A stretch of DNA of 64,000 nucleotides, taken from contig CP070234.1 in assembly GCA_017355425.1 (NCBI GenBank), positions 1 to 64,000 of the forward strand. The letters are read 5' to 3'. Each line of letters begins with the position of its first letter. The stretch's first letter is position 1. The notes below the pieces were generated by a model. It worked only from the letters and a program-made list of their open reading frames with translations, did no database searches and was not told where the DNA came from. Position numbers and translations under genes: made by a program. Positions 26,657 through 51,805 of this stretch are shown here, piece by piece. Origin of the DNA: Dolichospermum sp. DET69. Lineage in GTDB: Bacteria; Cyanobacteriota; Cyanobacteriia; Cyanobacteriales; Nostocaceae.

Positions 26657-26701
26657 TTGCTGGTAAACCCATATACAACTGCCATGAACCTTTACCAGCA
26701 A
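26657..26701 (+). promoter_or_regulatory. 11-bp hairpin enclosing the start codon of the coupling-protein gene
   Basis: Perfect arms ttgctggtaaa (26657-26667) and tttaccagcaa (26691-26701) enclose a 23-base loop that holds the ATG at 26684. No Shine-Dalgarno is present. It is the strongest of three start-codon hairpins in this region. Confidence 0.6.
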
Positions 26702-28564
26702 AACTTACCAAACCACCATTTCACTACTCAAACAGCACTAATTAGCTTACCAACTTACCAACCAACACTAGCCAATATTGACTTCGGTAAATTCTTTCAA
26801 CAGTACAACAACCCCCAAGGTTGGACAATGATGGCTGGACTGTTGGTAGTTTTAATACTACTGCAAATCAGTGGTACGGGTAAAGGCAAAATCACCACTG
26901 GTAAAGTCTGCGGTGTCAGCGAAAAACTAGCAGCCACTAACCTGGCATTTAAGCAAATCAAAGAACACAAACACAATAAAGTTACCCTCTGGTCTGGTAC
27001 ACCCCGTTACTGGACAAAAGGGAAGTGGCGGGGGTTAATGGCTAACCTGCAAACCATGCTAGGTGCAGCACCTACAGTTTGGTTTCCTCATGCCGAACGG
27101 GGAACACTGGTAATAGGTGCGCCGGGTTCTGGGAAAACTTACTCAACCATTGACCGGATGCTAGAAAGTGCCATGCAGCAAGGGTTTCCAATTTTACTCT
27201 ACGACAAAAAAGGCGACCAAATGCGACTGCACGCCCCTCTAGCAGCACGTTATGGCTATAAAGTGCGAGTATTTGCCCCTGGTGAAGCTTTTAGTGGTGT
27301 CATCAATCCCTTGGATTTTATGCGGGATGCACGGGATGGGGTAATGGCTGGGGAAATTGGTCAAGTCATTAACCGCAATGCTGCTAGTGGGGGTAAGAGT
27401 GACGAGTTCTTTGCTAAAGCTGGGGATTTGTTAGCAAAAGCATTATTACAGTTAGTCAAGGGTTCACCCTACCCAGATATGGCCATGCTGTATGCGGTGT
27501 TGCGGTTGCCAAAATTGGTACAACGTCTTGATCATGCGGTCCAGTCCAAACGGTTGGATGAATGGGTAGCCACCTCGTTTATCCAATTTTTGAGTGCTAA
27601 GGACGCAGAAAAGACTATTTCCGGGATTTTGACGACAGCGGCAGGGACTTTCTCATCTTTTATTCAAGCTGATTTGTTACGGGCCTTCATCGGTCAATCG
27701 GATATTCCCACTCAGCTATCAGGTAGAGAAATGGTGGTGTTCAAGCTAGATGATGAACGTCGTAGTGTGGTTGGTCCTTTACTAGCAGCAGCAATGCACT
27801 TAATGATTGTCGGTAATTTGAGCCGTCCCCGTAAAGACCCGTTGATTATTTCTTTGGATGAATTACCATCAATTAAGTTAGACCGACTGCCTCAGTGGAT
27901 TAATGAATATCGTTCTAATGGTGCTTGTTTTATTTTAGGTATCCAAAGTTTAGAGCAGCTTTACGATATTTATGGCGATAAAATGGGAAGTGCCATTGCT
28001 TCGGCTTGCAGTACCCATGTTTTATTTAATCCTGGTAACTATAAAACGGCGGAAGATTACTCAAAACGTTACGGTGAGAAGGAAGTGCTGATTAAAAATC
28101 GGACCACTGGGCGAACTCTTGGTGGACAAATGAGCCGTTCAATTAGCTGGAGTGAGAATTTACAAAAGATGCCTGTTATCAGTGCCGATGAAATTCTCAA
28201 GTTTCCCCAAGGTAAATGTGTAATTACCAGTCCTGGTTACAGTTCCGGGGGACAAGCTTCTATTCCCTATCCTTTAATTATTCCTGTGTCGAAAACAGAT
28301 GAAAAACGAGCTAAGGAAAGTGAGGGTCTGTGGGACACACAAGTTAGACTGGCTTTAGAAAGTCAGGTGACAATTCCTGATATTAAAATGCTCACACAGG
28401 CATTGTATGACCGCATTGAGGAAGCAGGACGGATGTTGCCATTACCAGAGGAAGATGTGGCCACAGTCCAGGAACAAGAGGAACAGGGGTCTGGTAATCA
28501 TCAAGAACCTGATGTTTTGGAGAATTTTCCAGCACGAGTTTATCAAACTCCAGGATTGCAATGA
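26684..28564 (+). CDS. VirD4/TraG-like type IV coupling ATPase
   Basis: I start it at the ATG at 26684 (MNLYQQNLPNHHF); a longer version needs a TTG in the stem. The 626-residue product has one N-terminal membrane segment (about 55-72), Walker A GAPGSGKT near 145, the TraG/VirD4 segment LLYDKKGDQMRLHAPLA, a Walker B LIISLDELPSIKLDRLP near 387 and FILGIQSLEQLYD as in TraD/TraG motor domains. Such hexameric ATPases hand relaxed plasmid DNA to the type IV secretion channel. It marks the replicon as conjugative or mobilisable; the relaxase is not in this window. Confidence 0.88.
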   Translation: MNLYQQNLPNHHFTTQTALISLPTYQPTLANIDFGKFFQQYNNPQGWTMMAGLLVVLILLQISGTGKGKITTGKVCGVSEKLAATNLAFKQIKEHKHNKVTLWSGTPRYWTKGKWRGLMANLQTMLGAAPTVWFPHAERGTLVIGAPGSGKTYSTIDRMLESAMQQGFPILLYDKKGDQMRLHAPLAARYGYKVRVFAPGEAFSGVINPLDFMRDARDGVMAGEIGQVINRNAASGGKSDEFFAKAGDLLAKALLQLVKGSPYPDMAMLYAVLRLPKLVQRLDHAVQSKRLDEWVATSFIQFLSAKDAEKTISGILTTAAGTFSSFIQADLLRAFIGQSDIPTQLSGREMVVFKLDDERRSVVGPLLAAAMHLMIVGNLSRPRKDPLIISLDELPSIKLDRLPQWINEYRSNGACFILGIQSLEQLYDIYGDKMGSAIASACSTHVLFNPGNYKTAEDYSKRYGEKEVLIKNRTTGRTLGGQMSRSISWSENLQKMPVISADEILKFPQGKCVITSPGYSSGGQASIPYPLIIPVSKTDEKRAKESEGLWDTQVRLALESQVTIPDIKMLTQALYDRIEEAGRMLPLPEEDVATVQEQEEQGSGNHQEPDVLENFPARVYQTPGLQ

Positions 28565-28737: not shown

Positions 28738-30459
28738 ATGCAAATTCATATTTATGCACAGCAAGGAAACATTGCGGGAGTCGGATATGAAATAGCCAAG
28801 GGTGTGGATATTGACTGTATAGACGAAAACGAATACTCCCAGCAAACACCATTAATGTATGCAGTTAGTAGCACCAATGCAGGTATTGATATGATTCATT
28901 TCCTCTTGGAACATGGTGCAAATGTGAATGCTATTGCAGAACAATCTGACTATACTGTACTTGGGTTGGTTGTACAATCGGGTAATTTAGAAAAAATCCA
29001 ATTAATTTTAGATGCTGGCGCGAATATTCACTATCAAACACCTCAAGAATATGATGTTTTAATTGATGCTATGCACGGTCGAGATATTTTGCTAGACCAA
29101 AACTTGCTCTCTATTTTAGATTTACTAATTTCTAAAGGTGCTGCTGTCAATGGCATGAGTAGCTATGGTGAAACGGCAATTAAAGTAGCTGCTCGTATTG
29201 GTAGATTTGATGCTGTTCAATTACTATTAAATGCAGGTGCTAATTCAGACCAATTGCAATGGACAGAATTAATGCAAGCTGTTGTTTTTGGTAGATTAGA
29301 AGAAGTAAAATTATTACTGGAACAAGGAGCAGATCAAGATGTGTATGATTGTTGGTATAGAACTCCTTGGTTGTTGAGTATTCAAGCAGGTGAACTAGCC
29401 AAAGCCAAATTACTTCTAGCTACGGGAGCAAATTCCAGCTATGAGGGAAACTGTGGTAAAACGCCGTTGATGTATGCTATAGAAAACAATCAGCCGGAAA
29501 TATTACAGTGGTTAATTGCAGAGGGATTTGATATTGAAGCCACTGATGATTTTAGTAATACTGCTTTATTAATTGCAGCCGAGTGTGGTGCAACCGATTG
29601 TGTAAAAATTCTCTTGGAAGCTGGCGTAAACCCTAGCAGAATTAATGATTGCAATGATAACGCTATTAAGATAGCTAATAATCTGGAAATTGTCAAAATG
29701 TTGGTTGCGGCTAGTGAAGATTTGAACGATATTAACGATGATATGCGGCGTGTTTTCACTGGCATTACCAACAGCAAATTTTCGCTATCCCAATTATCGA
29801 CACAACAATATTTTGCTGGTAAACATTCACGTTTTGGTACAGCTAATCCAGAATTAATGGATATTTCTTTTTGGCAAGCTATGATTTGTGAAGGTTGTGC
29901 TGCTTATACAGCAAAAAATATTTTTAATGATACAGAAAATTGGCAAGATCCAGCATGGTGTTATCAGCGATTTGGCAGAACTATTACACAATTACCAGAT
30001 GGCAGAATTGTAGAAATAGCTGGTGAACATGAAGATTACTATGACCCTGATTTTTGTATATATAATGATGTTGTAGTTTATCAAGGTGATGGTAATTTTC
30101 ATATTTTTGGTTATCCCCAAGATGTATTTCCGCCAACTGATTTTCATTCTGCTACATTAGTGGGAGAATATATATATATCATTGGTAATTTAGGATATCT
30201 TGGTACAAGAATCTATAATGAAACTCCAGTTTATAGATTACATATCCACACATTTGCCATAGAAAAAGTAGAAACAACTGGGGATAAACCAGGATGGATA
30301 AGTCGTCACAAAGCTTACTACCAAGAACCAGATAAAATTTATATTACTGGCGGTAAATTGTATGTAATTGGTAATGATAAATCAGAAGATTATATAGATA
30401 ACTCCGTTGATTACATCTTAGATTTAATTAGCTTAAATTGGAGTCGTGCTATTGTGTAA
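28738..30459 (+). CDS. Ankyrin-repeat protein with kelch-like C-terminus
   Basis: The 573-residue protein has about nine ankyrin repeats over residues 1-330 (recurrent TPLMYAV, LLLEQGAD, IQLILDAGANI). Its C-terminal half has beta-rich repeats with ITQLPDGRIVEIAGEHEDYYDP and YIIGNLGYLG, like kelch blades. Ankyrin repeats bind proteins; the kelch-like part may be a second interaction or enzymatic propeller. There is no signal peptide. It stands alone between the coupling ATPase and the zinc/lanthipeptide island. Partner unknown. Confidence 0.8.
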   Translation: MQIHIYAQQGNIAGVGYEIAKGVDIDCIDENEYSQQTPLMYAVSSTNAGIDMIHFLLEHGANVNAIAEQSDYTVLGLVVQSGNLEKIQLILDAGANIHYQTPQEYDVLIDAMHGRDILLDQNLLSILDLLISKGAAVNGMSSYGETAIKVAARIGRFDAVQLLLNAGANSDQLQWTELMQAVVFGRLEEVKLLLEQGADQDVYDCWYRTPWLLSIQAGELAKAKLLLATGANSSYEGNCGKTPLMYAIENNQPEILQWLIAEGFDIEATDDFSNTALLIAAECGATDCVKILLEAGVNPSRINDCNDNAIKIANNLEIVKMLVAASEDLNDINDDMRRVFTGITNSKFSLSQLSTQQYFAGKHSRFGTANPELMDISFWQAMICEGCAAYTAKNIFNDTENWQDPAWCYQRFGRTITQLPDGRIVEIAGEHEDYYDPDFCIYNDVVVYQGDGNFHIFGYPQDVFPPTDFHSATLVGEYIYIIGNLGYLGTRIYNETPVYRLHIHTFAIEKVETTGDKPGWISRHKAYYQEPDKIYITGGKLYVIGNDKSEDYIDNSVDYILDLISLNWSRAIV

Positions 30460-30560: not shown

Positions 30561-30711
30561 TTAAGCAACACCATATTTGGTATAAGGACGTTTATACGGG
30601 GGATGCAGCCCTAAAACAATATCTGAAGCTGGAACTCCTCTTTCCACTAACTTTGCTAACAGTGCATACTCTGCTATTCTGTAATAGTAATAATCATTCT
30701 CATATTTTAAG
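30561..30711 (-). pseudogene. XisI-like remnant (C-terminal part)
   Basis: A minus-strand frame without a start codon encodes LLAKLVERGVPASDIVLG followed by LHPPYKRPYTKYGVA and a stop. This is the C-terminal signature of XisI-like proteins (GVPKxDIVLGFHPPYKRxYTGFA), associated with excision of the fdxN element in heterocysts. Only about 45 codons remain. The Zur-box-like site of the next operon lies within its upstream end. Confidence 0.55.
30688..30702 (+). promoter_or_regulatory. Zur-box-like site before the barrel-lanM-lanT operon
   Basis: taataatcattctca matches the cyanobacterial Zur pattern TGAnAATnATTnTCA except at the second and third bases of the left end. It lies 12 bases before the GTG start, so a bound repressor would cover the transcription start. 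Confidence 0.65.
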
Positions 30712-30714
30712 ATT

Positions 30715-32877
30715 GTGAAAAAGAGGCTGAAAATCTGTGTTTACAGCACTTTGCTACTATTTGGGGGGTTACTAAAACCAGCAGTAGCCAATGACACTGC
30801 AACAATAAGTCCTCGGTTCGGGGTAAGTTACACTACGGAAGGTGCGGGTTATAATTCCTTTGGTAGCTTTGAGGGCTTTGTTCCGTTATTCCAGACTTCA
30901 GGTAGTAATCTGACTTTTCTCGAAGGAAAGTTGCTTTGGGATACGGAATCTACCTTGGGTGGTAATGTGGTGTTGGGATATCGCACTTATAACCGTCAAA
31001 GTAAGAGAGTATTAGGCGGTTATGTTTCCTATGATATCCGCGATACTGGTAAGAGTTCTTTTAATCAGTTGGGAACAGGGTTAGAAAGTCTCGGTAAAAT
31101 TTGGGATTTTCGCGCTAACGCTTATGTTCCCATTGGTGATACCCAGAATCAAGTTAGTAGCAATTTCCTTGGTACAAGCCAATTTGGGCAAAACTCACTG
31201 TTACTGGATAGGGTGCGTCTGTTTGAGTCGGCTATGACTGGGTTTGATATGGAAGCTGGTGGTAAATTAGTAGCATTAGGTAGCGGTGACTTACGTGGTT
31301 ATGGGGGATTGTACTACTATGCTGGTGAAGGTAGCGATGGTGTTATCGGTATTAAAGGCAGGTTAGTGGCGCGACCAAGTGATAATTTTGGCTTGAGTTT
31401 ATCAGTACAAAATGATAGTTTATTTGATACTAGAGTCGTTTTATCGGTAGCGGCTAATTTTCCCGCCAGTCGTCCCCGTAATGTGAACAGCAACGATAGT
31501 TTGGCACGTATTGGTGAATCAGTTGAGCGTCAAGCAGCTATTACTGTAAATCAGCGTCAGCAAATTGATACAGTCGCTGCTATTAACCCCGATACTAGTA
31601 ATCCCTATCGTTTTTTGCAGGTGAATTTAGGTGAAGGAACGGGGAACGGAACAGTTGAAAGTCCTTTTGGTACAGTTGCAAATGCGTTAGCTGTGGCTCA
31701 AACCAATGATATTATTTATGTGCAATCTGGGAAAAATCCCGGAATTCCTGGGTTTACAATTCCTAACGGTGTATCAGTCTTATCAAATAGCCCAGTACAA
31801 ATATTGAATACTGCACAGGTATCAGCAGTACAGTTACCGTTATCTGGAACTGGGATTTTACCGCAGGTGACAGAAACTATTACTTTAGGAAATAATAATA
31901 CTATATCTGGTTTTGCGATCGCTCTCAATAACGCTACCAGTAATTCTGCCATCACGGGAACAAACATTTCTAACCCTACGATTAGAGATAATACAATTAC
32001 CAGCTTGGGTGGTTCGGGTATTCAGCTAAATAATGTGAGTGGAAAAGCGATTATTGCCAACAACAACTTAATCAATTCTTTGAATAGTGGTCTGACTATT
32101 GATAATCGGACAGGTTTAGTTGAACTGCTAATTAACAATAACCAAATTAGCAATAATTCACGTTTTGGTATTAATATTGGTTTGACGGGTGATACAGTAA
32201 TTTCTACTGCTAATATAACCAATAACGTCATTGAAAATAATGGTAGTCAAGGTCTTCGTATTGCTACTGCATTAACAGCAACAACTCCAATACAATTCAT
32301 TCCTCATACTGGCAAAATTCAACAACTAAATATTTCTGGAAATACTGTTAATAGTAATAATAGAGATGGTATAGCTATTGTTGGAAATAGTGATATTGAT
32401 AATCTGACTATTGCCAATAATAAAATTACCAATAATGCCAGGAGAGGATTGACTATTCCCACCGGTGAAAATGCCAAAATCAATATTTTCATGGAAGGGA
32501 ATACATTGACTGGTAATGCTATTGATGGAATCGCCTTTCTTCCCGGAATTAATTCTCAAGTATTTGTTAATGCTAAGTTCAATACAATAACTGGCAATAT
32601 TGAGACCGATTTTAATGCCGAAGTAGAAGGAAATGCTAACCTAATTCTACAACTTAGCGATAATAAAATTGGCATCTTTAATACAGCAATAGATGAAGAA
32701 GGAAAAGCTTGTTTAAGGTTAAATAATAATCAGATTGAAGCCTTAAATTTGAGTAACGATAATGCACCGGATTCCACACTACAAGTTGAAAATACATTAC
32801 CGGGAAATAATACTATTGGGACGATTTCTCAAAATAATATCACTACCGTATCTTCTGGGGCTTGCAGCTTACCATAA
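30715..32877 (+). CDS. Outer-membrane barrel (inverse-autotransporter-like) with beta-helix passenger
   Basis: It starts with GTG. The 720-residue protein has a signal peptide (about 1-25, ending PAVA), then a domain of about 230 residues rich in alternating strands (SPRFGVSYTTEGAGY, VLGYRTYNRQSKRVLGGYVSYD) like the intimin/invasin-type barrel. From about 300 on there are many short Asn/Ile/Gly-rich rungs (NNQISNNSRFGINIG, NVIENNGSQGL) typical of a right-handed parallel beta-helix. It would sit in the outer membrane with the helix exposed outside. It is 4 bases upstream of lanM, under a Zur-box-like site, suggesting a surface role in zinc scarcity: docking or uptake of the peptide, or adhesion. 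Confidence 0.75.
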   Translation: MKKRLKICVYSTLLLFGGLLKPAVANDTATISPRFGVSYTTEGAGYNSFGSFEGFVPLFQTSGSNLTFLEGKLLWDTESTLGGNVVLGYRTYNRQSKRVLGGYVSYDIRDTGKSSFNQLGTGLESLGKIWDFRANAYVPIGDTQNQVSSNFLGTSQFGQNSLLLDRVRLFESAMTGFDMEAGGKLVALGSGDLRGYGGLYYYAGEGSDGVIGIKGRLVARPSDNFGLSLSVQNDSLFDTRVVLSVAANFPASRPRNVNSNDSLARIGESVERQAAITVNQRQQIDTVAAINPDTSNPYRFLQVNLGEGTGNGTVESPFGTVANALAVAQTNDIIYVQSGKNPGIPGFTIPNGVSVLSNSPVQILNTAQVSAVQLPLSGTGILPQVTETITLGNNNTISGFAIALNNATSNSAITGTNISNPTIRDNTITSLGGSGIQLNNVSGKAIIANNNLINSLNSGLTIDNRTGLVELLINNNQISNNSRFGINIGLTGDTVISTANITNNVIENNGSQGLRIATALTATTPIQFIPHTGKIQQLNISGNTVNSNNRDGIAIVGNSDIDNLTIANNKITNNARRGLTIPTGENAKINIFMEGNTLTGNAIDGIAFLPGINSQVFVNAKFNTITGNIETDFNAEVEGNANLILQLSDNKIGIFNTAIDEEGKACLRLNNNQIEALNLSNDNAPDSTLQVENTLPGNNTIGTISQNNITTVSSGACSLP

Positions 32878-32881
32878 AGTC

Positions 32882-35800
32882 ATGAATCAACAAAACATAG
32901 CCTGGTATCAAGCCCTAAGATTGACAGAAAGAATTACATCTATAGATGATTCAAAACCACTTAATCCAGCTTTAGCTGAACGAAAATTAAAACTTTGGAA
33001 ATCACAAACTCCCTTTAACGACGAATTATCCTTTCAGCAACGTTTAGAAATTGATGGTATCACAGAAGAAGAATTTAGCTACCTCTTGGGTGAAAGCGTG
33101 GAAAATATTGCTAAACGCATTCCCGTTCCTCCGAATTGGTTAATAGAAATTGAAGCAGCTTTTTCTCGTTCTAATCCACCAGAAATTAAAATAACTCCAC
33201 CAGCAGAATTACACAAAGATGAAAAATCTGGAGCTTTTTTGTATGGGATAGAACCAATAATTAGCGAAGGTGTCGAACGTCTAAGTCAGGGAATCAAAAA
33301 AATTGCCAATACCCAATCTAATTTACTTTTTGATATCTCCACAATTGAAACCATATTTTTGGTTAATTTGCCTAGTAATTTATTAGTAATGTTAACTCGA
33401 ACAATGGTGCTGGAGTTTAATATTGCCTGTTTACAAAATCGGGTATCAGGAAATAATACTGAAGAAAAGTTTATCAGTTTTCTAGAAAGTCTCCAAACTA
33501 GAGATATTCAACTTAATTTATTGCAAGAATACCCAGTCTTAGCTAGGCAATTAGTAATATATATTCAGCAATGGGTAGAAGTTAGTTTAGAGTTTATCCA
33601 GCGACTCTGTGCTGATTGGCAAGAAATTTGTTCAACATTTAGCCCAGGAAAAGAACCCGGTGCATTAGTAGAAATAAATAGCAATGCAGGTGATTCTCAT
33701 CGTGGTGGACGTTCTGTCATAATTGCTAAATTTAGTTCTGGTTTGCAAATAGTTTATAAACCCAGATCCTTAGCGATAGATAAACATTTTCAACAGCTAC
33801 TAACATGGATTAATCAACGAGGAAAACTCCCAGAATTTCAGACGCTACAAGTTATCGAACGTGGTAGTTATGGTTGGATAGAATTTGTGCAGGTTCAAAG
33901 TTGCCATTCAGTGGTAGAAGTTGAGCATTTTTATCAACGGTTGGGAGGATATTTAGCCCTACTTTATACCCTAGACGCGACAGATTTTCATCATGAAAAT
34001 TTGATTGCTACTGGTGAACAACCAATTTTGATTGATCTTGAATCACTTTTTCATCCACGCATTATCAGTGATTTCCAAGCATCCCTGCTGACAGAAATGA
34101 TGATGAGTGAATCAGTTCTTAGGGTAGGATTATTACCTAGAAAAATATGGGCAAATAGTAAATCTAGAGGAGTAGATTTAAGTGGTATTGGTGGCGCGAA
34201 AGGGCAAATTATGCCTCATTATATTCCTCAGCTACAGGGAGTAGGCTCAGATAAAGTGCAAATTATTCGTAAACAAATAGAGTCACAAGAAACTCAAAAT
34301 CGTCCACAGCTAAATCAAGCTGAAGTGAATGTTTTAGAATATCAAGATGCAATTATTCAGGGTTTTACTAATGTCTATGAATTACTCTTGAACTCTAGAG
34401 AAGAGTTGTTAGCGAAATCAGGAATTCTGACCTGTTTTGAATCTGATGAAATTCGGGTTATTTTACGTCCGACTCAGACTTATTCATTGTTGCTACAAGA
34501 GAGTTTTCATCCTCATGTTTTAGGTAATGCTTTAGAACGCGATCGCTTATTTGATAAACTTTGGATAGATGTGCAAAATCGCCCTTTTTTAGTGAAAGTC
34601 ATTACTTCTGAACAGGGTGATTTGTGGCAAGGAGATATCCCTATATTCACCACCTATCCTAATTCTTGTGATGTTTGGAATAGTCAGAATCAAAGATTGA
34701 GAAATTTTCTGCCTGAACCAAGTATTTCTCAAGTTCGGCGGCGATTTCAGCAGTTAAACTCAGAGGATTTAAAACGGCAAATCTGGTTTATCCGCGCTTC
34801 CTTGGGTGCATTAGCGGTAGACGCTGGAGGAGAAGGATGGGTAAGCTACCGTTTATCAACATCCTCAATCTTTCCCTCTTCCGAAGAATTACTTAAATTT
34901 GCTTGTGCTGTCGGCGATCAATTGGAATTACTAGCATTACATCACAATGAAGCAGCGAGTTGGATTGGTTTATCATTTGTTGATGGAACTCACTGGGCTA
35001 TTACTCCTTTAGGTTTGGATCTCTATGATGGAGTTTCGGGAATTGCCCTATTTCTCGCTTATTTGGGAGAAATTAGCCAAGAAAACCGCTATACAGTATT
35101 AGCTGAAGCGGCACTAACAACGATGATCACACAAATTCAAACTAGCAAATTATCTACTTCTTGTATTGGTGGTTTTACTGGGTGGGGTGGAGTTATTTAT
35201 ACTCTCACTCATTTGGGCGTTTTATGGCAAAAGCCAGAATTGTTAAATATGGCTGGGACATTAGTAGAAAAGTTACCAGCACTGATTTGCCAAGATCAAA
35301 ATTTTGACATCATCGCAGGTGCGGCAGGTTGTATTGCGAGTCTGCTAAATTTGTATAAATATTTGCCTAATGAGGAAATTCTGAAGGTAGCAATTAAATG
35401 TGGCGATCGCTTAATAGAAACAGCAGAACCTCAAGAGAAAGGCATTCGTTGGATTTCCCCCTTCGCAGGAACAAAACCTCTGACAGGATTTGCTCATGGG
35501 GCTGCGGGCATAGCCTGGGCTTTATTGGAATTAGCCGCCGTTTCTGAAATGGAGCGCTTTCACGAAATAGCCATCGCTGCTATTACTTACGAACAACACG
35601 CAAATAATGTACTTCTGAACACAAATAATTATCTCTGCACATGGTGTCAAAGCACACCAGGAATTGGGTTGGCACGGTTAGATTCCTTAACAAAGGGTAG
35701 ACTTATCCACATCAATCAAGCAGAAATACTGACTGAAATTCATACTGCACTAAAGACCACCCTCACGGAAGGATTTGGACTCAACCACAGTATATGTCAT

Positions 35801-36058
35801 GGCGACTTAGGTAATATAGAATTATTGCTACAAGCCAGTCAAACCATAGCCCCTGAATACGCCTCTGAGGTAAAACATCTAACAGCCAGCATTCTCCACA
35901 GTATCACTCAACATGGTTGGCTTTGTGGAACACCACTAGGCGTAGAAACTCCTAGTTTAATGACAGGTATTGCAGGCATTGGCTATGGCTTACTGCGACT
36001 AGCTGCACCTGAACGCGTACCTTCAGTATTATTACTTGCACCTCCTATAAAATCATGA
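32882..36058 (+). CDS. lanM: Class II lanthipeptide synthetase LanM
   Basis: The start is the ATG 4 bases after the barrel gene's stop (32882), giving 1058 residues. The N-terminal two thirds is the dehydratase (kinase-like: IYKPRSLAIDKHF, LDATDFHHENLIATG, PILIDLESLFHPR), which phosphorylates Ser/Thr and eliminates phosphate. The C-terminal cyclase has the LanC motifs GFAHGAAGIAWAL, CTWCQSTPGIGLARL near 918 and ICHGDLGNIELLL near 972; Cys and Cys-His there bind the catalytic zinc that activates substrate cysteines. It overlaps lanT by 4 bases. A zinc enzyme induced when zinc is scarce is notable. Confidence 0.95.
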   Translation: MNQQNIAWYQALRLTERITSIDDSKPLNPALAERKLKLWKSQTPFNDELSFQQRLEIDGITEEEFSYLLGESVENIAKRIPVPPNWLIEIEAAFSRSNPPEIKITPPAELHKDEKSGAFLYGIEPIISEGVERLSQGIKKIANTQSNLLFDISTIETIFLVNLPSNLLVMLTRTMVLEFNIACLQNRVSGNNTEEKFISFLESLQTRDIQLNLLQEYPVLARQLVIYIQQWVEVSLEFIQRLCADWQEICSTFSPGKEPGALVEINSNAGDSHRGGRSVIIAKFSSGLQIVYKPRSLAIDKHFQQLLTWINQRGKLPEFQTLQVIERGSYGWIEFVQVQSCHSVVEVEHFYQRLGGYLALLYTLDATDFHHENLIATGEQPILIDLESLFHPRIISDFQASLLTEMMMSESVLRVGLLPRKIWANSKSRGVDLSGIGGAKGQIMPHYIPQLQGVGSDKVQIIRKQIESQETQNRPQLNQAEVNVLEYQDAIIQGFTNVYELLLNSREELLAKSGILTCFESDEIRVILRPTQTYSLLLQESFHPHVLGNALERDRLFDKLWIDVQNRPFLVKVITSEQGDLWQGDIPIFTTYPNSCDVWNSQNQRLRNFLPEPSISQVRRRFQQLNSEDLKRQIWFIRASLGALAVDAGGEGWVSYRLSTSSIFPSSEELLKFACAVGDQLELLALHHNEAASWIGLSFVDGTHWAITPLGLDLYDGVSGIALFLAYLGEISQENRYTVLAEAALTTMITQIQTSKLSTSCIGGFTGWGGVIYTLTHLGVLWQKPELLNMAGTLVEKLPALICQDQNFDIIAGAAGCIASLLNLYKYLPNEEILKVAIKCGDRLIETAEPQEKGIRWISPFAGTKPLTGFAHGAAGIAWALLELAAVSEMERFHEIAIAAITYEQHANNVLLNTNNYLCTWCQSTPGIGLARLDSLTKGRLIHINQAEILTEIHTALKTTLTEGFGLNHSICHGDLGNIELLLQASQTIAPEYASEVKHLTASILHSITQHGWLCGTPLGVETPSLMTGIAGIGYGLLRLAAPERVPSVLLLAPPIKS

Positions 36059-38199
36059 AATACCAAGTTGTTTTGCAACATAATCAAGAAGATTGTGGTT
36101 CAGCTTGTTTAGCTTCTATTGCCAAATATTACGGGCGGATTTTTTCCCTAAATCGCACCCGCGAAGCCACCGGAAACGGACAACTAGGAACTACATTACT
36201 CAATCTTAAACAAGGATCTCAACAATTAGGCTTCAATGCGCGGGGAGTCAAAGTTTCAATTGAATTAGTTGATCAGAAAATCATCCCCTTACCAGGAATA
36301 ATTCATTGGTTGGGTAATCATTGGGTTGTTCTTTACGGAAAAAAAGGTTCTAAATATGTAATTGCTGATCCTGCTTCAGGTATTCGTTACTTATCAAAAG
36401 TAGAACTACTTGCCAGTTGGACAAATGGCGGAATGTTGTTATTAGAACCACGTCCTAATTTTCATTTGACACCTGATGATCGAAATAAAATTGGTGGACT
36501 TTGGAAATTTTTTGGCCGATTTTGGAATTACCGGAATATTCTTTTAGAAGCATTATTACTAAATTTTGCAGTTGCTGTACTTTCTTTGAGTGCGCCATTT
36601 TTAATTCAAATTCTCACTGATGATGTGTTAGTAAGAAATGATCGACAACTTCTTTCAAGTGTAGCAATTGCTATTTTGTTAATGAACCTAATTAGTAGTA
36701 GTCTTAAATTTGTGCAGTCGAACTTAATCGCCCATTTTGCTCAACGGCTAGAATTAGACTTAACCTTAGAATTTGGAAGACAGATTTTAAATTTACCTCT
36801 CGCGTACTATGAAGTTCACCGCAGTGGTGAAATTACCAGCCGGTTACGAGATATTCAAGAAATTAATCGCTTAATTTATATTATTGGTTTTAGTCTTCCT
36901 GGACAAATATTTATCGGAGCAGTTTCTTTATTATTTATATTTATATACAGTCCAAATATATTGATAATTCCCATAATTATAGCTCTGATTATGAGCTTAT
37001 CAACATTTATTTTTCAGCCTCAAATTCAACAAAGTATCCGCAATTTATTAGCATTAAGTAGCGAAAATCAAGGTTTACTCATAGAAAGTTTTAAAGGAGC
37101 GCTAATCATGAAAAGCATGAATGCAGTTCCTCACTTTTGGGAAGAATTTCAAAGCCAATTTGGACGAATAGCTAACCTCAGCTTTCGGACTACTCAAATT
37201 GCAATTATTAATAACACTTTTTCTGGATTAGCTTTTAATGCTGGTGGAATTATAATTTTATGGTTTGGTAGTACATTAGTGATGGATAAAGCATTAAGTA
37301 TTGGACAATTGTTAGCAATAAATAGCCTTAGTGCTAATTTTCTTGATTTAATCAATACCATACTGAATTTTGTTCCCCAAATTACTCGGACTCAAGCTGC
37401 TACTGAGCGATTAATGGAAGTTATTGAATCTACTCCCGAAACTTCAGTCGAAAGCCGCCTAGAAACTGTTACAATTTCCGCGAATGCTGATATTATTTTT
37501 AGTAATTTAAACTTTCATCATCCTGGTAGAATTGAATTACTCAAAGATATTAATTTGATCATTCCTGGTGGTAAAATTATTGCCATAATTGGGAAGTCAG
37601 GCTGTGGTAAAAGTACATTAGCTAAACTAATTGCCAGTTTATATCAGCCGAAATCAGGTAATATTCGGATTGGTCAATATAATCTACAAGACATTTCTCT
37701 GAATTGCCTAAGAGAACAAGTAATATTAGTTCCCCAAGATGCTCATTTTTGGAGTCGCTCAATTATTGAAAATCTGCGTTTAGGTTATTCTCAAACTACA
37801 TTTGAGCAGGTTATCACAGCTTGTCAGATAGCTAATGCTGATGAATTTATAAGTAAATTACCAAATAAATATCAAACTATTATTGGCGAATTTGGTGCAA
37901 ATCTTTCGGGAGGACAAAGACAAAGATTAGGAATTGCTAGAGGCATAATTACAGATCCACCTATTCTGATTTTAGATGAATCTACAGCCGGACTAGATCC
38001 ACTTAGTGAGGTGCAAGTGCTTAATCAATTATTATCTCACCGTCAAGGAAAAACCACTATTCTCATCAGTCACCGTCCTCAAGTAATTAAACACGCTGAT
38101 TGGATTATCTCACTTGAGGAGGGACGGGTAAAACTTCAAGGAACACCAAAAGATTTACTTTCTCAATCTGGAGAACATCTCAATTTTTTAGTTTTTTAA
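36055..38199 (+). CDS. lanT: LanT-type ABC exporter with N-terminal C39 peptidase
   Basis: The 714-residue protein has a C39 peptidase domain at the N-terminus with QEDCGSACLASIAKYYG (catalytic Cys14), a His in GNHWVVLYG near 90 and Asp in IADPASG. Five to six membrane spans follow, then an ABC ATPase (Walker A IGKSGCGKST near 512, signature LSGGQRQRLGIARG, Walker B ILILDESTAGLDP). Such transporters cut the leader after a double Gly and export the mature peptide. The precursor at 38512 carries that Gly-Gly. The gene is coupled to lanM and is followed by a hairpin-rich repeat. Confidence 0.95.
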   Translation: MKYQVVLQHNQEDCGSACLASIAKYYGRIFSLNRTREATGNGQLGTTLLNLKQGSQQLGFNARGVKVSIELVDQKIIPLPGIIHWLGNHWVVLYGKKGSKYVIADPASGIRYLSKVELLASWTNGGMLLLEPRPNFHLTPDDRNKIGGLWKFFGRFWNYRNILLEALLLNFAVAVLSLSAPFLIQILTDDVLVRNDRQLLSSVAIAILLMNLISSSLKFVQSNLIAHFAQRLELDLTLEFGRQILNLPLAYYEVHRSGEITSRLRDIQEINRLIYIIGFSLPGQIFIGAVSLLFIFIYSPNILIIPIIIALIMSLSTFIFQPQIQQSIRNLLALSSENQGLLIESFKGALIMKSMNAVPHFWEEFQSQFGRIANLSFRTTQIAIINNTFSGLAFNAGGIIILWFGSTLVMDKALSIGQLLAINSLSANFLDLINTILNFVPQITRTQAATERLMEVIESTPETSVESRLETVTISANADIIFSNLNFHHPGRIELLKDINLIIPGGKIIAIIGKSGCGKSTLAKLIASLYQPKSGNIRIGQYNLQDISLNCLREQVILVPQDAHFWSRSIIENLRLGYSQTTFEQVITACQIANADEFISKLPNKYQTIIGEFGANLSGGQRQRLGIARGIITDPPILILDESTAGLDPLSEVQVLNQLLSHRQGKTTILISHRPQVIKHADWIISLEEGRVKLQGTPKDLLSQSGEHLNFLVF

Positions 38200-38210
38200 A
38201 AAGATGTTTT

Positions 38211-38346
38211 CTCGTTCCCATACAGAGTATTTCTCATTTCTCATTCCCATACTCTGTATGGGAATGAATTATAAAAGGCTCTGCCTTCAATAATAGTAGA
38301 GGCAGAGCTTCTGTAATAGCATTCCCAGCCAGAGACTGGGAACGAG
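38211..38346. repeat. Hairpin-rich MITE-like interspersed repeat, 136 bp
   Basis: Ends ctcgttccca (38211-38220) and tgggaacgag (38337-38346) are inverted repeats. Inside are two more stems: cattcccatac with gtatgggaatg near 38243-38268, and aaggctctgcc with a matching ggcagagctt near 38276-38310. I recall similar sequences dispersed in Nostoc-type genomes. It lies between lanT and the precursor gene and fills half of the 38200-38511 gap. Confidence 0.7.
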
Positions 38347-38439
38347 GTATGGTAAAAGTTTAAGCTGAATTTGACACCAATGGTTTTTTGCTTTACCACT
38401 ACATATTTCTCAAAAATTATCTAAATTTTTTATAAAGAA

Positions 38440-38454
38440 TAAGAATCATTCTCA
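38440..38454 (+). promoter_or_regulatory. Zur-box-like site before the lanthipeptide precursor
   Basis: taagaatcattctca has a perfect agaat-c-attct core and differs from TGAGAATCATTCTCA at one base. A -10-like tatagt follows at 38463-38468, so binding would block RNA polymerase. It gives the precursor its own promoter. Confidence 0.72.
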
Positions 38455-38472
38455 AAATAATGTATAGTAAAA

Positions 38473-38494
38473 AAGAACACAAATTCGTGTTCTT
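38473..38494 (+). promoter_or_regulatory. Leader hairpin of the precursor gene
   Basis: Perfect 8-bp stem aagaacac / gtgttctt with a 6-base loop, 17 bases before the ATG and just before the gagg ribosome site. Read on the other strand it is followed by T7, so it could also stop minus-strand transcription. Confidence 0.55.
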
Positions 38495-38511
38495 AGTAAA
38501 TCGAGGTGTAT

Positions 38512-38736
38512 ATGTCTACCAATGATATCATTCGCGCTTGGAAAGATGAAGACTACCGTGCTAGTTTGACCGAAGAACAACGGTTACAACTGCCAGAAAA
38601 TCCTGCTGGGTTGATTGAACTAACTGATGATGATATGTCGTCTATGGTTGGTGGTTTGTTAGCAGGTGAAGTACATACCAAAACTTGCAACCATTGCTGT
38701 GGTTCTGCTAGTGCTGCGACAATTTCACTGGCATAA
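38512..38736 (+). CDS. lanA: Class II lanthipeptide precursor with Cys/His-rich core
   Basis: The ATG at 38512 has gagg 5 bases upstream. The 74-residue peptide has a leader of the mersacidin/lichenicidin type (NDIIRAWKDEDYR, LPENPAGLIEL, then acidic DDDM) ending in a double Gly at 47-48. The predicted core is 26 residues with Cys at 59, 62 and 63, His at 55 and 61, and Ser/Thr at 56, 58, 65, 67, 70 and 72, enough for up to three thioether rings. The segment HTKTCNHCC is unusually dense in metal ligands. It is made under its own Zur-box-like promoter, next to its modifying and export genes. Zinc binding is a hypothesis. Confidence 0.92.
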   Translation: MSTNDIIRAWKDEDYRASLTEEQRLQLPENPAGLIELTDDDMSSMVGGLLAGEVHTKTCNHCCGSASAATISLA

Positions 38737-38772
38737 TTATTAGCTAATTGTGCAGAAATGAAACATAAATAT

Positions 38773-38801
38773 CATCAGAGTAATATTCTCTGATGTAATT
38801 T
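38773..38801 (+). terminator. Terminator or attenuator after the precursor
   Basis: Perfect 8-bp stem catcagag / ctctgatg with a 7-base loop, followed by a T-rich stretch (taatttgtatttt). It would let the precursor message exceed that of the downstream secretion gene. Confidence 0.65.
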
Positions 38802-38842
38802 GTATTTTCGGTGCATTTTGGATAGCTAAATGTCAAATTTGC

Positions 38843-40429
38843 ATGAGAAGAGGAAATATAAAACTTCTTCTCGTGCAAATTTTCATGTTCATTAAATTTA
38901 TTTTTTTATTTAATAATTGGAGAAAAATTTTGCATAATTTTCAGCCTCTTATTCTACCTCCAATCAAAAGTGATGAATTTTTACCACCTATTAATAATTG
39001 GGTAAGAATAGGTGGATTATTACTTTTTTTCCTAGTTTTTATATCCTTTTTTATAGCGGCAATTACTAAATATAAAGTCACCGTAAAAACTCCAGGGATT
39101 GTCCGTCCTACTGGAGAATTACGCATTATTCAACCTGCGATTGAAGGCACTGTGGCAAAAATTTTAGTTCAAGAAAATCAAGCAGTAAACCGAGGAGATA
39201 AAATCGCTACTATTGATGATCAAGAATTGCAAAATCAAAAAAGTAAAATTCTAGTAACTAGCCAACAAAATCAATTACAACTTGTACAAATAGATGGACA
39301 AATTCAAGCTTTAGAAAGACAAATTGCTGAAGAAACTATTCGCATTCGTGGTTCTATTGCCTCTGCTAAAGCCGATATGAAACTTACAGTTCGTAACTAT
39401 CGAGATAGAACAGTTACGGCTAATAGCGAAGTAGAAGAAGCTGAATCAAACCTGAAAATTGCCCAAAATGATTTGCAAAAGGCTCAATCTGAATTACAGT
39501 CAGTCCAAGCCAATTTCAAAGCCAATCAAGCGGCATTTCAAGCAGCTATTCTCAAGCGCGATCGCTATCAATCCATAGCTCAATCTGGCTCAATTTCCCA
39601 AAATCAACTAGAAGAAGCACAATTAATTGTTGATCAACAGGAACAAATTCTTAAATCTCAATCAGCAAATGTGGATATTCAAAAACAAGTTATTGAGCAG
39701 AAACAGCAAGCTTTACAGACAGCAATTGCTAAACGGAAAAAGGCATTGGCAATATTGAATCCTAGCAATGCAGTCCTCACAATAGCAACAGAAAAAATTA
39801 CCCAAGAACGGGCTGCTGGTGAAGTTAGTTTAGCTAAATTAAAGCAAGAACAAAAAAGCTTAATTCAGAATCAAGTTGCACTTAAAAACCAAATTAGTAA
39901 TACAGAAAAAGAACTTAAAGATATAGAAAATCAACTGCAAAAAACAGTAATTACTAGCCCAGCAGCAGGGACTATTTTGAAGTTAGAACTGCGAAATTCT
40001 GGACAAGTAGTCAGTGCTGGACAAGCTATAGCTTATATTTCTCCTAGTACAGCACCTTTAGTAATTAAATCCCGTATTAATGCTGCTGATATTAGTAAAG
40101 TGAAAGTTTGTCAAGCCAAAAAAGTTGCAGAATGTGAAATAGGAAAGGTGAAAATGCGGGTTTCTACTTATCCTTACCCTGATTATGGTACATTATCTGG
40201 GGCTGTAAGAGCGATATCTACTGATTCAACAGCATCACAAAATCATGGAAATACTACAACAACAGCATATTACGAAATTACTATTGAACCAGAAAAACTT
40301 TATTTAGAAAGAGGAAAAAAACAATATCCTATCCAATCCGGTATGGAAGTAACAGCAGATATTATTGCTGAAGAAGAGACTGTATTAATATTTATGCTTA
40401 GAAAAGCGAGATTGTTAACAGATTTATAA
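38843..40429 (+). CDS. HlyD-family membrane fusion protein for peptide export
   Basis: The 528-residue protein has one membrane span (about 51-76), then a first biotinyl/lipoyl-like half (PGIVRPTGELRIIQPAIEGTVAKILV) and a long coiled coil (about 130-370). The second half follows (VITSPAAGTILKLELRNSGQVVSAGQAIAYISP), with a C-terminal beta domain ending GMEVTADIIAEEETVLIFML. This is the order of HlyD/LcnD adaptors, which link an ABC exporter to the outer membrane. It lies 106 bases after the precursor and most likely serves LanT. The exact start is uncertain (the ATG at 38885 is an alternative); neither has a good ribosome site. No TolC-like gene is in the window. Confidence 0.87.
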   Translation: MRRGNIKLLLVQIFMFIKFIFLFNNWRKILHNFQPLILPPIKSDEFLPPINNWVRIGGLLLFFLVFISFFIAAITKYKVTVKTPGIVRPTGELRIIQPAIEGTVAKILVQENQAVNRGDKIATIDDQELQNQKSKILVTSQQNQLQLVQIDGQIQALERQIAEETIRIRGSIASAKADMKLTVRNYRDRTVTANSEVEEAESNLKIAQNDLQKAQSELQSVQANFKANQAAFQAAILKRDRYQSIAQSGSISQNQLEEAQLIVDQQEQILKSQSANVDIQKQVIEQKQQALQTAIAKRKKALAILNPSNAVLTIATEKITQERAAGEVSLAKLKQEQKSLIQNQVALKNQISNTEKELKDIENQLQKTVITSPAAGTILKLELRNSGQVVSAGQAIAYISPSTAPLVIKSRINAADISKVKVCQAKKVAECEIGKVKMRVSTYPYPDYGTLSGAVRAISTDSTASQNHGNTTTTAYYEITIEPEKLYLERGKKQYPIQSGMEVTADIIAEEETVLIFMLRKARLLTDL

Positions 40430-40873: not shown

Positions 40874-41890
40874 TCATTTAGGACCAAACGCTGTATACTT
40901 ACCTCCTAAACCTTCCACAATTGTGCGTGTATTAGCAATCAACATTCCTTGGTAAGTCTCACCCTCTGTCCCCTTTTCGCCCAAACCATCAGCAAACAAT
41001 TCTCTGTCTGAAACCTTAACTTTTGCCTCTTTTGCTACCGCCTGTATGAGTTTCGGGTTAATCGTTGTCTCTGCAAAAATTGTTAGTACACCCTGTTTTT
41101 TAATATCCTTTGATAATGCACCTACCCGCGCAGGTGTCGGCGCTTCTTCTGTGCTAATACCTCCTAGCGCCCCTTCAATGGGAATTCCATAAGCTTTGGA
41201 ATAGTAACCGAAAGCATCATGGGTGGTAACTAATTTGCGTTGCTTGGGTGGAATTGTGGCTATTTCTGATTTAATCCAGGTATCTATCTGACTAATTTGA
41301 TTTGTGAGTTTTTGCGTGTTGCTAGTATAAGTTGCAGCATTATTTGGGGCTATTTTCCCTAACTCTTGAGAAATCGTCTGGGCGATCGCTATGCCATTCT
41401 GGGCATTTTGCCATACATGAGGGTCGGTAACAGTTTTACCATCCTCGTTAAACTGCTGAGGTTGGGGGACTGCAACTTCATTTACAGCCACCTTGGGAGC
41501 GGAATTTGAAGTAGCTTTAATTAACTTGATTAAACCTGGTTCAAAATCGTAGCCACCGTAGAGGATTAACTTTGCTTGCTCAATTGCTTTGCTATCATCA
41601 GGCTTAGGTTGATATACATGGGGATCTGAGCCTGGATCGATTAAACACTTGAGGTCAATAGTATCACCTGCGATTTCTTTAGTTAAGCCACAAGCAATGG
41701 TATTGGTAGCGACCACTAACGGTTTACTACTGGCTTCTGGCGCTGGTGAAGTCCCCGTTTGAATAGCAGACGCATTATCACCGGGCGTGGGAGTCGATTG
41801 ACTGGTTTGGGATGTTGGACTACATCCAAGTACTCCACAGGTTAAGGCAAGAGCCGCTAAGGATTTCAATTGCAGTTTGTAAGATATCAT
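40874..41890 (-). CDS. znuA: Zinc ABC transporter substrate-binding lipoprotein ZnuA
   Basis: The 338-residue protein has a lipobox LGC with Cys23 and a Thr/Ser-rich linker. The metal ligands of the family follow: DPHVYQPKPDD, DPHVWQN, a late THDAFGYYSKAYG and an acidic residue in FAETTINPK. It lacks the long His-rich loop of many ZnuA, so manganese is conceivable from structure alone. The Zur-box-like site and the divergent znuC-znuB operon make zinc the better call. It captures zinc in the periplasm and delivers it to ZnuB. The C-terminus TIVEGLGGKYTAFGPK is matched by a decayed copy at 43690. Confidence 0.9.
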   Translation of the reverse strand: MISYKLQLKSLAALALTCGVLGCSPTSQTSQSTPTPGDNASAIQTGTSPAPEASSKPLVVATNTIACGLTKEIAGDTIDLKCLIDPGSDPHVYQPKPDDSKAIEQAKLILYGGYDFEPGLIKLIKATSNSAPKVAVNEVAVPQPQQFNEDGKTVTDPHVWQNAQNGIAIAQTISQELGKIAPNNAATYTSNTQKLTNQISQIDTWIKSEIATIPPKQRKLVTTHDAFGYYSKAYGIPIEGALGGISTEEAPTPARVGALSKDIKKQGVLTIFAETTINPKLIQAVAKEAKVKVSDRELFADGLGEKGTEGETYQGMLIANTRTIVEGLGGKYTAFGPK

Positions 41891-41913
41891 AAATCTGATG
41901 ACTTAAATTATAT

Positions 41914-41928
41914 TGATTATCATTATCA
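41914..41928. promoter_or_regulatory. Zur-box-like site between znuA and znuCB
   Basis: tgattatcattatca fits TGAnnATnATTnTCA and lies in the 54-base gap between divergent starts (23 bases from znuA, 16 from znuC), so one site can control both directions. Confidence 0.75.
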
Positions 41929-41944
41929 TATAAATGGTAGATTT

Positions 41945-42673
41945 ATGTTAGAAGTTAAAAATTTAGCTGTAAATTACCGGGGAGTCACGGCGGTTGAGGA
42001 TGTGAGTTTCCGTTCCTTACCGGGACAAATTGTGGGTGTGATTGGCCCCAATGGTGCTGGTAAAAGCACGATGGTGAAGGCGATTTTGGGCTTAGTACCA
42101 ACCACGAGTGGAGTTGTAAAATTTCGCGATCGCGCTTTGAAACAGCAATTAAATTCTGTTGCGTATGTACCACAGCGATCGCAAATTGACTGGGATTATC
42201 CCATAACAGTCTGGAATGTAGTGCTGATGGCGCGGACTGTTCATACAGGCTGGTTTCGCGCACCTTCACGATCATCTCAAGAAATAGTCAAAGATGCTTT
42301 GGTGAGAGTGGGGATATTAGAGTTGCGATCGCGTCAAATTGGAGAGTTATCAGGCGGACAGCAACAGCGAGTATTTTTAGCAAGAGCTTTAGCACAACAA
42401 GCCGAATTATTATTCTTTGATGAGCCGTTTGTTGGAGTTGATAAAAAGACAGAAGCCATAATATTTGAGGTATTTGAAGAACTAAAATCTCAAGGCAAGA
42501 TTTTGCTGGTAGTTACTCATGATTTAGGCACTACTTTGACCAAATGTGACCAGTTATTATTGTTGAATAAACAAATGATTGCTAATGGTTCCATGAAAGA
42601 AGTAATGACAGCAGATAATATCCAACGTGCTTATGGAGATAGTATATTTATATTTAATAGGGAAGTAGTTTAA
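41945..42673 (+). CDS. znuC: Zinc ABC transporter ATPase ZnuC
   Basis: I use the ATG at 41945 (MLEVKNLAVNYRG); upstream codons in frame would lie over the promoter. The 242-residue ATPase has Walker A GPNGAGKST near 35, Q-loop PQRSQIDWDYP, signature LSGGQQQRVFLARAL and Walker B LLFFDEPFVGVD, then the H-loop TH near 197. It energises zinc import through ZnuB. Its stop overlaps the znuB start by one base. Confidence 0.93.
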   Translation: MLEVKNLAVNYRGVTAVEDVSFRSLPGQIVGVIGPNGAGKSTMVKAILGLVPTTSGVVKFRDRALKQQLNSVAYVPQRSQIDWDYPITVWNVVLMARTVHTGWFRAPSRSSQEIVKDALVRVGILELRSRQIGELSGGQQQRVFLARALAQQAELLFFDEPFVGVDKKTEAIIFEVFEELKSQGKILLVVTHDLGTTLTKCDQLLLLNKQMIANGSMKEVMTADNIQRAYGDSIFIFNREVV

Positions 42674-44857: not shown

Positions 44858-44878
44858 CCTACAAGCTAGAAGCCAACA

Positions 44879-44904
44879 CCTTGACATTAACACCAATGTC
44901 AAGG
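44879..44904 (+). promoter_or_regulatory. CoaR operator and coaT promoter
   Basis: Perfect 10-bp arms ccttgacatt (44879-44888) and aatgtcaagg (44895-44904) are separated by 6 bases. The left arm contains a -35 (ttgaca, 44881-44886), and a weak -10 (near 44907) lies about 20 bases later: the over-long spacer that MerR proteins correct by twisting DNA. Confidence 0.82.
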
Positions 44905-44937
44905 TTTAGCGTAGGAGAGTTCCTTCACTCACAGTTT

Positions 44938-49153: not shown

Positions 49154-49177
49154 CAGAAGGGAACTACTCTGTTAAAA

Positions 49178-51788: not shown

Positions 51789-51805
51789 AAAGGTTTGTTA
51801 GGTGA

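Follow-up and report, generated by a model that had tools for sequence, protein, structure and literature searches.

Znu-type sites before a class II lanthipeptide system of Dolichospermum sp. DET69 point to a peptide of the zinc-starvation regulon

The Zur regulon of Anabaena sp. PCC 7120 is described as including znuABC, TonB receptors, hemB2, thrS2 and folE2 (PMC6103462), and Zur of Anabaena also represses ZepA, a secreted zinc-uptake protein, with putative Zur sites overlapping the promoters (PMC10957091). The stretch of Dolichospermum sp. DET69 analysed here (64,000 nucleotides, positions 1 to 64,000 of contig CP070234.1, hereafter the window) carries a class II lanthipeptide (lan) system that resembles the PCC 7120 regulon and ZepA in having znu-type sites, several of the same neighbouring genes and a product that would be secreted in zinc starvation, but ZepA is a PEP-CTERM protein and not a lanthipeptide (PMC10957091). 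The text of the ZepA paper contains no word beginning with lanthi- or lanti-, and the relevant passages of the Zur review (PMC6103462) mention no lanthipeptide. Our reading, towards which the balance tips slightly, is that the lan system belongs to the zinc-starvation (Zur) regulon and that its peptide most likely serves as an extracellular zinc ligand.

Like other cyanobacterial class II systems of the TIGR03898 precursor family, the system comprises a LanM synthetase, a LanA precursor with a GG cleavage site, a C39-type LanT and an HlyD protein; unlike them, among the genomes examined, it belongs to a subclass with a DDMSS-type leader in which zinc-type sites are present, cores are histidine-rich with CxC or CxxC, and part of the LanMs are ligand-free. 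Methanobactin, a ribosomally synthesized and post-translationally modified peptide that is a copper metallophore, and coelibactin, a Zur-controlled metallophore made by a nonribosomal peptide synthetase (NRPS), are secreted small metal ligands under metal control, as the lan product is proposed to be, but they are not lanthipeptides, and metal binding by the lan peptide is a prediction. The nostolysamides of Nostoc punctiforme PCC 73102 are likewise cyanobacterial class II lanthipeptides with a C39 exporter, but differ in their Nif11 leader, lysine acylation and antimicrobial activity, according to the relevant parts of a paper (PMC13060382) in which the word Zur does not occur. The putative LanM of Pseudanabaena galeata CCNP1313 is also a class II enzyme without the His/Cys/Cys ligands, and is plasmid-borne, but its system is reported with a Nif11 leader and a Cys-free predicted core (PMC11356792), whereas the ligand-free LanMs described below are paired with Cys-containing cores. 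Class III LanKC, with its metal-independent cyclase, likewise has a cyclase domain without zinc ligands, but represents another synthetase class, and the passages concerned do not mention zinc control (PMC10604976). Titles and abstract openings of the open literature, a body of text with subscription papers mostly outside it, yielded no Zur-controlled lanthipeptide and no ribosomal zincophore.

The lan genes and the znu-type sites of the window are as follows:

30688-30702, forward strand: Zur/znu-type 7-1-7 site TAATAATCATTCTCA, 16.3 bits, before the barrel/beta-helix-lanM-lanT operon, ending 12 base pairs (bp) before the GTG.
30715-32877, forward strand: barrel/beta-helix gene with GTG start codon, encoding a secreted/outer-membrane protein of 720 amino acids with an inverse-autotransporter barrel and a right-handed beta-helix (Pfam IAT_beta, Beta_helix, DUF1565).
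32882-36058, forward strand: lanM, class II lanthipeptide synthetase, TIGR03897 at 979 bits (cut-off 304), with DUF4135 (PF13575) and LANC_like (PF05147).
36055-38199, forward strand: lanT, C39-peptidase ATP-binding cassette exporter (Pfam Peptidase_C39, ABC_membrane, ABC_tran).
38440-38454, forward strand: Zur/znu-type 7-1-7 site TAAGAATCATTCTCA, 16.1 bits, beginning 72 bp before the ATG of lanA.
38512-38736, forward strand: lanA, precursor of 74 amino acids, TIGR03898 at 72 bits (cut-off 23.5), E 2.5e-20.
38843-40429, forward strand: hlyD, periplasmic adaptor for export (HlyD_3, Biotin_lipoyl_2).
41914-41928, forward strand: znu site TGATTATCATTATCA, 20.2 bits, between divergent znuA and znuCB, a member of the training set.
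49178-49192, forward strand: site before the cobW operon, 16.8 bits.
55478-55492, forward strand: site before the thrS-cobW2-folE operon, 19.4 bits.

As the first-pass annotation of the sequence had described, the first three genes form a tight operon, with a 4-base gap (32878-32881, taking 32882 as the start of lanM) and a 4-base overlap (36055-36058). The lanA gene, with its own site, forms a second unit with hlyD (38512-40429). The LanM is a bifunctional class II enzyme, having a DUF4135 dehydratase and a LanC-like cyclase (Pfam, TIGR03897), and its cyclase zinc ligands are intact when read in alignment (TWCQSTPG, ICHG). The LanA has the features of a class II precursor: a TIGR03898 leader of mersacidin/lichenicidin type ending in DDDMSSMVGG, a GG cleavage site, and a core, LLAGEVHTKTCNHCCGSASAATISLA, with Ser/Thr and three Cys.

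The 15-position matrix behind these scores was trained solely on znuC-upstream sites from 19 genomes, of which the window's own znu site is one and the lan sites are none. Thirty znu loci were fetched, five without a readable znuC were dropped, and from the remaining 25 upstream regions 19 were kept that matched at least 10 of 12 fixed positions of a palindromic frame, while the six below 10 of 12 were dropped, the training sites thus being chosen by their match to the consensus frame; znuB relatives are present in 58 of 60 genomes. Exactly five positions in the 64 kb reach 16 bits or more, a cut-off fixed after the scores were seen: those before znu, thrS, cobW, the lan operon and lanA. The Zur-box-like sites that the annotation had placed at 30688 and 38440 are therefore upheld as two of the five. 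The lan sites could conceivably be chance matches near AT-rich promoters, since they deviate from the palindromic consensus, one at 2 positions and the other at 3, but a first-order Markov null gives 0.10 sites of at least 16 bits per 64 kb (200 runs, maximum 1; about 3e-4 per 200-bp promoter) against five seen, all before zinc or lan units. This null, together with the conservation described below, rules chance out for practical purposes and leaves it a negligible probability. A plain consensus scan used letters that we take to be the Anabaena Zur consensus, the source of which is reportedly Napolitano 2012. At up to two mismatches it gave 173 matches in the whole genome versus 213 for a reversed control pattern; because this count shows no excess, support for the sites rests on the matrix, on position and above all on conservation. 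At up to one mismatch there are 15 matches in the genome: three at zinc-type genes, three before other genes, one intergenic but upstream of none, and eight inside reading frames. Of the six upstream matches, one is thus at hemB, one at znu and one at a divergent znuA-like/porin pair, and the genes that follow the other three were recognised neither as iron nor as zinc genes. In a simple sigma-70 scan of the regions upstream of the lan operon and of lanA, nothing resembling a promoter was found on the gene strand.

Conservation was followed in an order-wide search of 388 genomes with a query alignment in which the window's LanA was joined by eight relatives detected through protein similarity. 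Sites precede lanA in loci L003-L010 and not in L011, the ninth and weakest relative, which was left out of the alignment after the sites were known; the search nevertheless returned both kinds. Matches occur in 42 of the 388 genomes, and 59 fetched stretches, some overlapping, gave 70 distinct LanA proteins. In this first sample a site matching at least 11 of 12 consensus positions lies within 250 bp upstream of 27 lanA genes and is absent from 43, and the leader end D[ED]D[ML]S[SA] occurs in all 27 boxed and in none of the 43 unboxed proteins. A second sample, drawn largely from the family to which the window belongs, supplied 21 further LanA proteins, those scored being the ones returned as loci among 59 matches listed, with the remainder at 99.5 bits or less. 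Here the pre-set combination of motif and 11-of-12 cut-off failed, sites being found in 3 of 5 with the motif versus 4 of 16 without (p = 0.28), because leader ends vary (NDDMSS, EEDMSS and DDDMMS were missed) and two sites reached no more than 10. Once the znu matrix was applied, together with a leader pattern widened after that result was seen, nine subclass members of the second sample score at least 11.1 bits and 12 others at most 6.3. Over both samples all 36 subclass lanA genes reach at least 11.1 bits, with sites starting at -71 to -183, versus at most 9.4 bits for 54 other TIGR03898 lanA genes, none of which attains the subclass scores (L082, with 2 bases upstream, was dropped). Among the genomes examined, znu-type sites are confined to this one precursor subclass. 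Its members in the first sample span eight family labels (f1, f2, f5, f9, f15, f28, f29 and f30), although the boxed genes are not independent events, because the sequences are related.

The synthetase genes behave in the same manner. A site of at least 14.3 bits lies near the start of 27 of 28 box-linked lanM genes, compared with 0 of 19 other lanM genes (best 7.3), the short region of L088 having been dropped; one of the 27, L097, where lanM comes after lanA, was counted by its lanA site. The sole exception, L231, has an order like that of the window, with the closest relative of the barrel/beta-helix gene, preceded by a 17.1-bit site, and then a lanM whose product is 51% identical; its lan genes adjoin a cobW gene 79% identical to that of the window, and no lanA was seen on the contig. 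When mapped on a quick LanM tree of 49 rows, for which the program issued long-branch warnings, the box label requires 2 changes, versus a shuffle mean of 15.3. The first-pass annotation had proposed a genome search for LanA genes preceded by Zur boxes, and would have given up the idea had homologous lan operons lacked similar boxes; the search found boxes before all 36 distinct lanA genes of the window's leader subclass and 27 of 28 lanM genes.

We strongly infer Zur control of the lan units from the znu-type sites and their conservation, and regard it as very probable. The proposal that the peptide system answers zinc starvation gains support from boxes that are present at lanA and lanM of the subclass and absent from lan genes of the same family outside it; since the relatives keep the same switch, zinc shortage is probably the condition in which the peptide is made. 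Alternatively, the sites might be bound by a different member of the FUR family, iron Fur or PerR, so that the system would answer iron or peroxide and not zinc: the genome encodes four FUR-family proteins, any of which could be Zur, and Fur boxes of other bacteria look similar to 7-1-7 boxes of this type. However, the matrix was trained on znu sites, and the three recognised genes or pairs among the six upstream consensus matches are of zinc type. Upstream regions of flavodoxin, which we take to be a Fur-controlled gene, score like background, only one of 26 reaching the lowest subclass score of 11.1 bits (4 of 30 loci without the motif were dropped). The lan sites also resemble znu sites and not the published FurA consensus of Anabaena, AAATAAATTCTCAATAAAT (PMC4005646); the passages on cyanobacterial FUR proteins in PMC4628125 and PMC12058595 contain no site sequence. 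The flavodoxin control and the differing FurA consensus make iron Fur unlikely as the regulator, and we consider control by any other FUR-family protein quite improbable.

From what is known of these families, the system would work as follows. With zinc bound, Zur would occupy the sites at 30688 and 38440 and keep both transcription units off; as zinc falls, the outer-membrane/surface protein, LanM, LanT, the precursor and HlyD would be made. LanM would dehydrate Ser and Thr and close thioether rings in the Cys/His core, and LanT would cut behind the GG site and export the peptide together with HlyD. The most likely role of the peptide would then be to bind extracellular or periplasmic zinc and help to return it through an outer-membrane partner, which in the window would be the barrel/beta-helix protein, in 20 of 36 loci a porin-like protein, and which in some Nostocaceae might be a TonB-dependent receptor combined with a FecCD-type importer. 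A secreted product with export genes (LanT, HlyD) under metal control is what is expected of a metallophore, the control here being predicted from the sites; zinc binding and zinc return by the peptide are steps that we infer, and for the ligand role taken by itself we see the chances as evenly divided.

The cores suggest such a role by their pattern, though a pattern of residues is not proof of metal binding. All 35 subclass cores counted (L066 was dropped) contain His, versus 18 of 50 others (4 of 54 lacking a usable core); HT or HH is found in 33 versus 4, CxC or CxxC in 34 versus 12, and CX2CX4HX4-6C, close to the spacing of zinc knuckles, in 10 versus none. The subclass cores contain 2-4 Cys.

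The cyclase zinc of LanM is presumably held by the Cys of a W-C motif and by the Cys and His of C-H-G. These ligands are changed in 16 of 29 readable box-linked LanMs versus none of 18 readable others, WC becoming WS or WN and CHG becoming CNG, CSG, GNG or AQG; they are intact in the other 13 (the window and 12 more) and in all 18 outside the subclass, counting four with CCG (L231 and L070, incomplete, were excluded). The dehydratase motifs shown in the alignment and the GFxHGxxG motif are retained in the changed enzymes, which on the tree make up one 15-member clade plus L090. Zinc-ligand mutants of lacticin 481 synthetase reportedly still dehydrate but cyclise poorly (Paul 2007). Class III enzymes are described as closing rings without metal (PMC10604976). 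Cores with 2-4 Cys beside LanMs without ligands therefore imply either metal-free ring closure or the retention of free thiols. A more ambitious proposal is that of a widespread family of ribosomal zincophores, repressed by Zur, whose CCHC-like or HxxxCxHCC-like cores would bind external zinc for recovery at the outer membrane, the clade's ligand-free synthetase either closing rings without metal or dehydrating only and leaving Cys thiols free as zinc ligands; we advance this tentatively, as somewhat more doubtful than the ligand role itself.

The outer-membrane partners were compared in 36 box-linked loci, namely 26 of the first reading, L230, L231, L238-L241, L244, L246, L247 and the window, many of the stretches being short contigs. 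In 20 of the 36, lanM has a porin-like gene as its divergent neighbour, mostly with a site between the two; the proteins have OprB and SLH by Pfam in 3 of 3 tested, nine were aligned, and the others were read from translations. In the group with HTKTCxHCC cores (L003, L095, L239, L241, L246 and L247) the partner gene instead encodes a secreted protein that we take to be HAF-repeat-like, with matches to DUF3466 that stay under the curated cut-off in both proteins tested. An hlyD-like gene or piece is present in 35 of the 36 loci, L231 being the exception. The barrel/beta-helix family has matches in 41 of 243 genomes, and after two of 29 homologues without a start were dropped, a site of at least 16 bits was found before only one of the 27 others scored (L201, extended as L231), which also precedes lanM; the gene is thereby ruled out as a lan-specific part. 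Two further porin-like proteins deserve mention. One, the second such protein of L093 (16214-18121, reverse strand), has its own zinc-type site and a His-rich loop, HGHGHGHGHG, which suggests a zinc-binding porin. The other, on the larger contig of the Dolichospermum genome (L237:3730-8337), is divergent from a znuABC-like operon; an 18.7-bit site lies close to where the first gene starts, and zinc control of a porin away from lan is possible there.

The frequent pairing with a barrel/beta-helix, porin-like or HAF-repeat-like secreted protein raises the alternative that the peptide acts on its producer, as a signal or as a structural component of the surface or outer membrane that cooperates with the porin or beta-helix protein in zinc shortage. 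We consider this rather improbable, as the surroundings of the loci, read without a profile search for such genes, revealed neither a receptor kinase nor a lan regulator, and the His/Cys core pattern suggests contact with metal. The main rival to a zinc ligand is a bacteriocin aimed at competitors for zinc and made in zinc shortage, with Zur merely setting the timing. In its favour are a leader of the mersacidin/lichenicidin family, a core that changes from lineage to lineage as those of competition peptides do, and a Nostoc lanthipeptide with another leader type that is described as antibacterial and antifungal (PMC13060382). Yet no lantibiotic immunity gene (LanFEG or LanI) was recognised in the loci read, where no immunity profiles were run; the His and Cys patterns are retained across lineages; the divergent porin-like gene recurs; and LanMs without zinc ligands would be expected, if the lacticin 481 synthetase mutants are a guide, to cyclise poorly. 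On balance a bacteriocin seems unlikely, though less so than a producer-directed role.

Uptake genes of metallophore type lie beside some relatives, which suggests a zinc-ligand role. A TonB-dependent receptor, DUF7676, a periplasmic binding protein and a FecCD-type permease are beside or near lan in three genomes of family f1 (Nostoc/Trichormus, called Nostocaceae here): L243, L244-L245 and L241/L248, with Pfam run on ten of these proteins and their neighbours. Plasmid A of Trichormus variabilis ATCC 29413 (NC_007410, typed conjugative) has the porin (AVA_RS27215, annotated 'iron uptake porin'), LanM (RS27210), LanT (RS27205), LanA (RS27200) and HlyD (RS27195) in one stretch with metallophosphatase, GTP-binding genes, thrS, hemB and znuA; sites precede lanM (17.3 bits) and lanA (16.5), and those of the zinc stretch score 13.5, 19.4 and 16.5 bits. 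The corresponding plasmid of T. variabilis strain 0441 (NZ_CP047243) carries a receptor/importer operon with a 16.5-bit site before the receptor. Of 20 DUF7676 loci two reach 15.2 bits and the others at most 11.1, a weak test because the receptor promoters probably lie outside the flanks of about 1.5 kb covered on each side.

Several observations weigh against the reading of a Zur-controlled zinc ligand. Besides the failed cut-off in the second sample and the small share of own-genome consensus matches at zinc-type genes (3 of 15, with 8 inside reading frames), the uptake operon also occurs without lan, in 13 of 44 unboxed versus 18 of 36 boxed genomes over all families (p = 0.07) and, within Nostocaceae, in 11 of 35 unboxed versus 15 of 18 boxed genomes (p = 0.0004), both for hand-chosen genomes with kinship uncorrected. 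The DUF7676 uptake operon is missing from the window's genome, and around the one TonB receptor encoded there the 14 kb covered contain no strong site (best 10.7); a TonB receptor as the general importer is thus unsupported there. Outside the His/Cys pattern the core sequences differ widely. Thioether sulphur is a poor zinc ligand, and most LanMs themselves require zinc.

Next to the lan units, znuABC and two further Zur-linked operons had also been noted by the first-pass annotation, and these are present with their sites (cobW, 49178; thrS, 55478):

40874-41890, reverse strand: znuA, zinc-binding periplasmic protein (Pfam ZnuA, E 2.8e-79).
41945-43557, forward strand: znuC-znuB zinc importer (Pfam), divergent from znuA; the znu genes together span 40874-43557.
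48182-49153, reverse strand: cobW operon, cobW by Pfam.
55465-51806, reverse strand: thrS-cobW2-folE operon, thrS and folE named from translations.

Zinc-island genes occur in the fetched stretch of 13 of the 36 box-linked loci, among them the window and the conjugative plasmid of T. variabilis ATCC 29413, in a count that covers box-linked loci alone: znu is near lan in the window, L003/L243, L097, L230 and L244, and cobW, folE, thrS or the metallophosphatase/GTPase set known from the window's island in L006, L007, L084, L093, L231, L239, L241/L248 and L246. This linkage speaks for a place of lan in the zinc-starvation response. Units that have a zinc-type site and adjoin lan, znu or hemB repeatedly include a gene for an FAD/NAD(P)-binding protein (L006:8650-9879, L083:9609-10826, L084:9181-10398, L093:18266-19492, L244:8600-9838 and L236:6698-7966); this protein matches the lysine/ornithine monooxygenase family in the two tested and is perhaps an undescribed member of the cyanobacterial Zur regulon. 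Genes named from translations as metE-like (L245:2392-4731) and metH-like (L241:16973-19000) are in or next to zinc/lan islands, the latter directly following two strong sites (19.0 and 17.6 bits).

The window is part of a 6.04-Mb genome in two contigs, and its host contig is probably a plasmid, because it has 200,795 bases beside the 5.84 Mb of the other and encodes a type IV coupling protein (26657-28564 in the window); a DNA search of a plasmid collection gave short matches only. A second zinc island on the chromosome (L236, C1:1196000-1210000) has thrS, cobW2 and folE 91%, 97% and 95% identical to the window copies (48182-55465), so that the plasmid-like contig carries a near-duplicate island plus lan and znu. 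The genome's second LanM has no znu-type site, and no TIGR03898-type lanA was seen nearby. Just upstream of the lan operon, 28738-30459 encodes an ankyrin-repeat protein of 573 amino acids, with no site of at least 15.5 bits before its gene. Beside the zinc genes (43754-46848), a MerR-CbiC fusion regulator is divergent from a P-type ATPase, a pair that resembles what we take to be the cobalt sensor/exporter pair CoaR-CoaT. Elsewhere on the plasmid-like contig (L234:2446-20000, C2:84001-104000), translations indicate large NRPS/polyketide synthase-like genes and an amidinotransferase-like gene.

If the reading of a Zur-controlled zinc ligand is correct, it would tell under which condition a group of cyanobacterial lanthipeptides is induced and what their function is likely to be, and would offer a named laboratory host for them, T. 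variabilis ATCC 29413. The discussion of the ZepA paper leaves open how extracellular zinc is handed over across the outer membrane (PMC10957091), and the lan peptide could be a ligand used in the uptake of zinc through the cyanobacterial outer membrane. The LanMs that have lost their zinc ligands constitute a natural test of what the zinc of LanM does.

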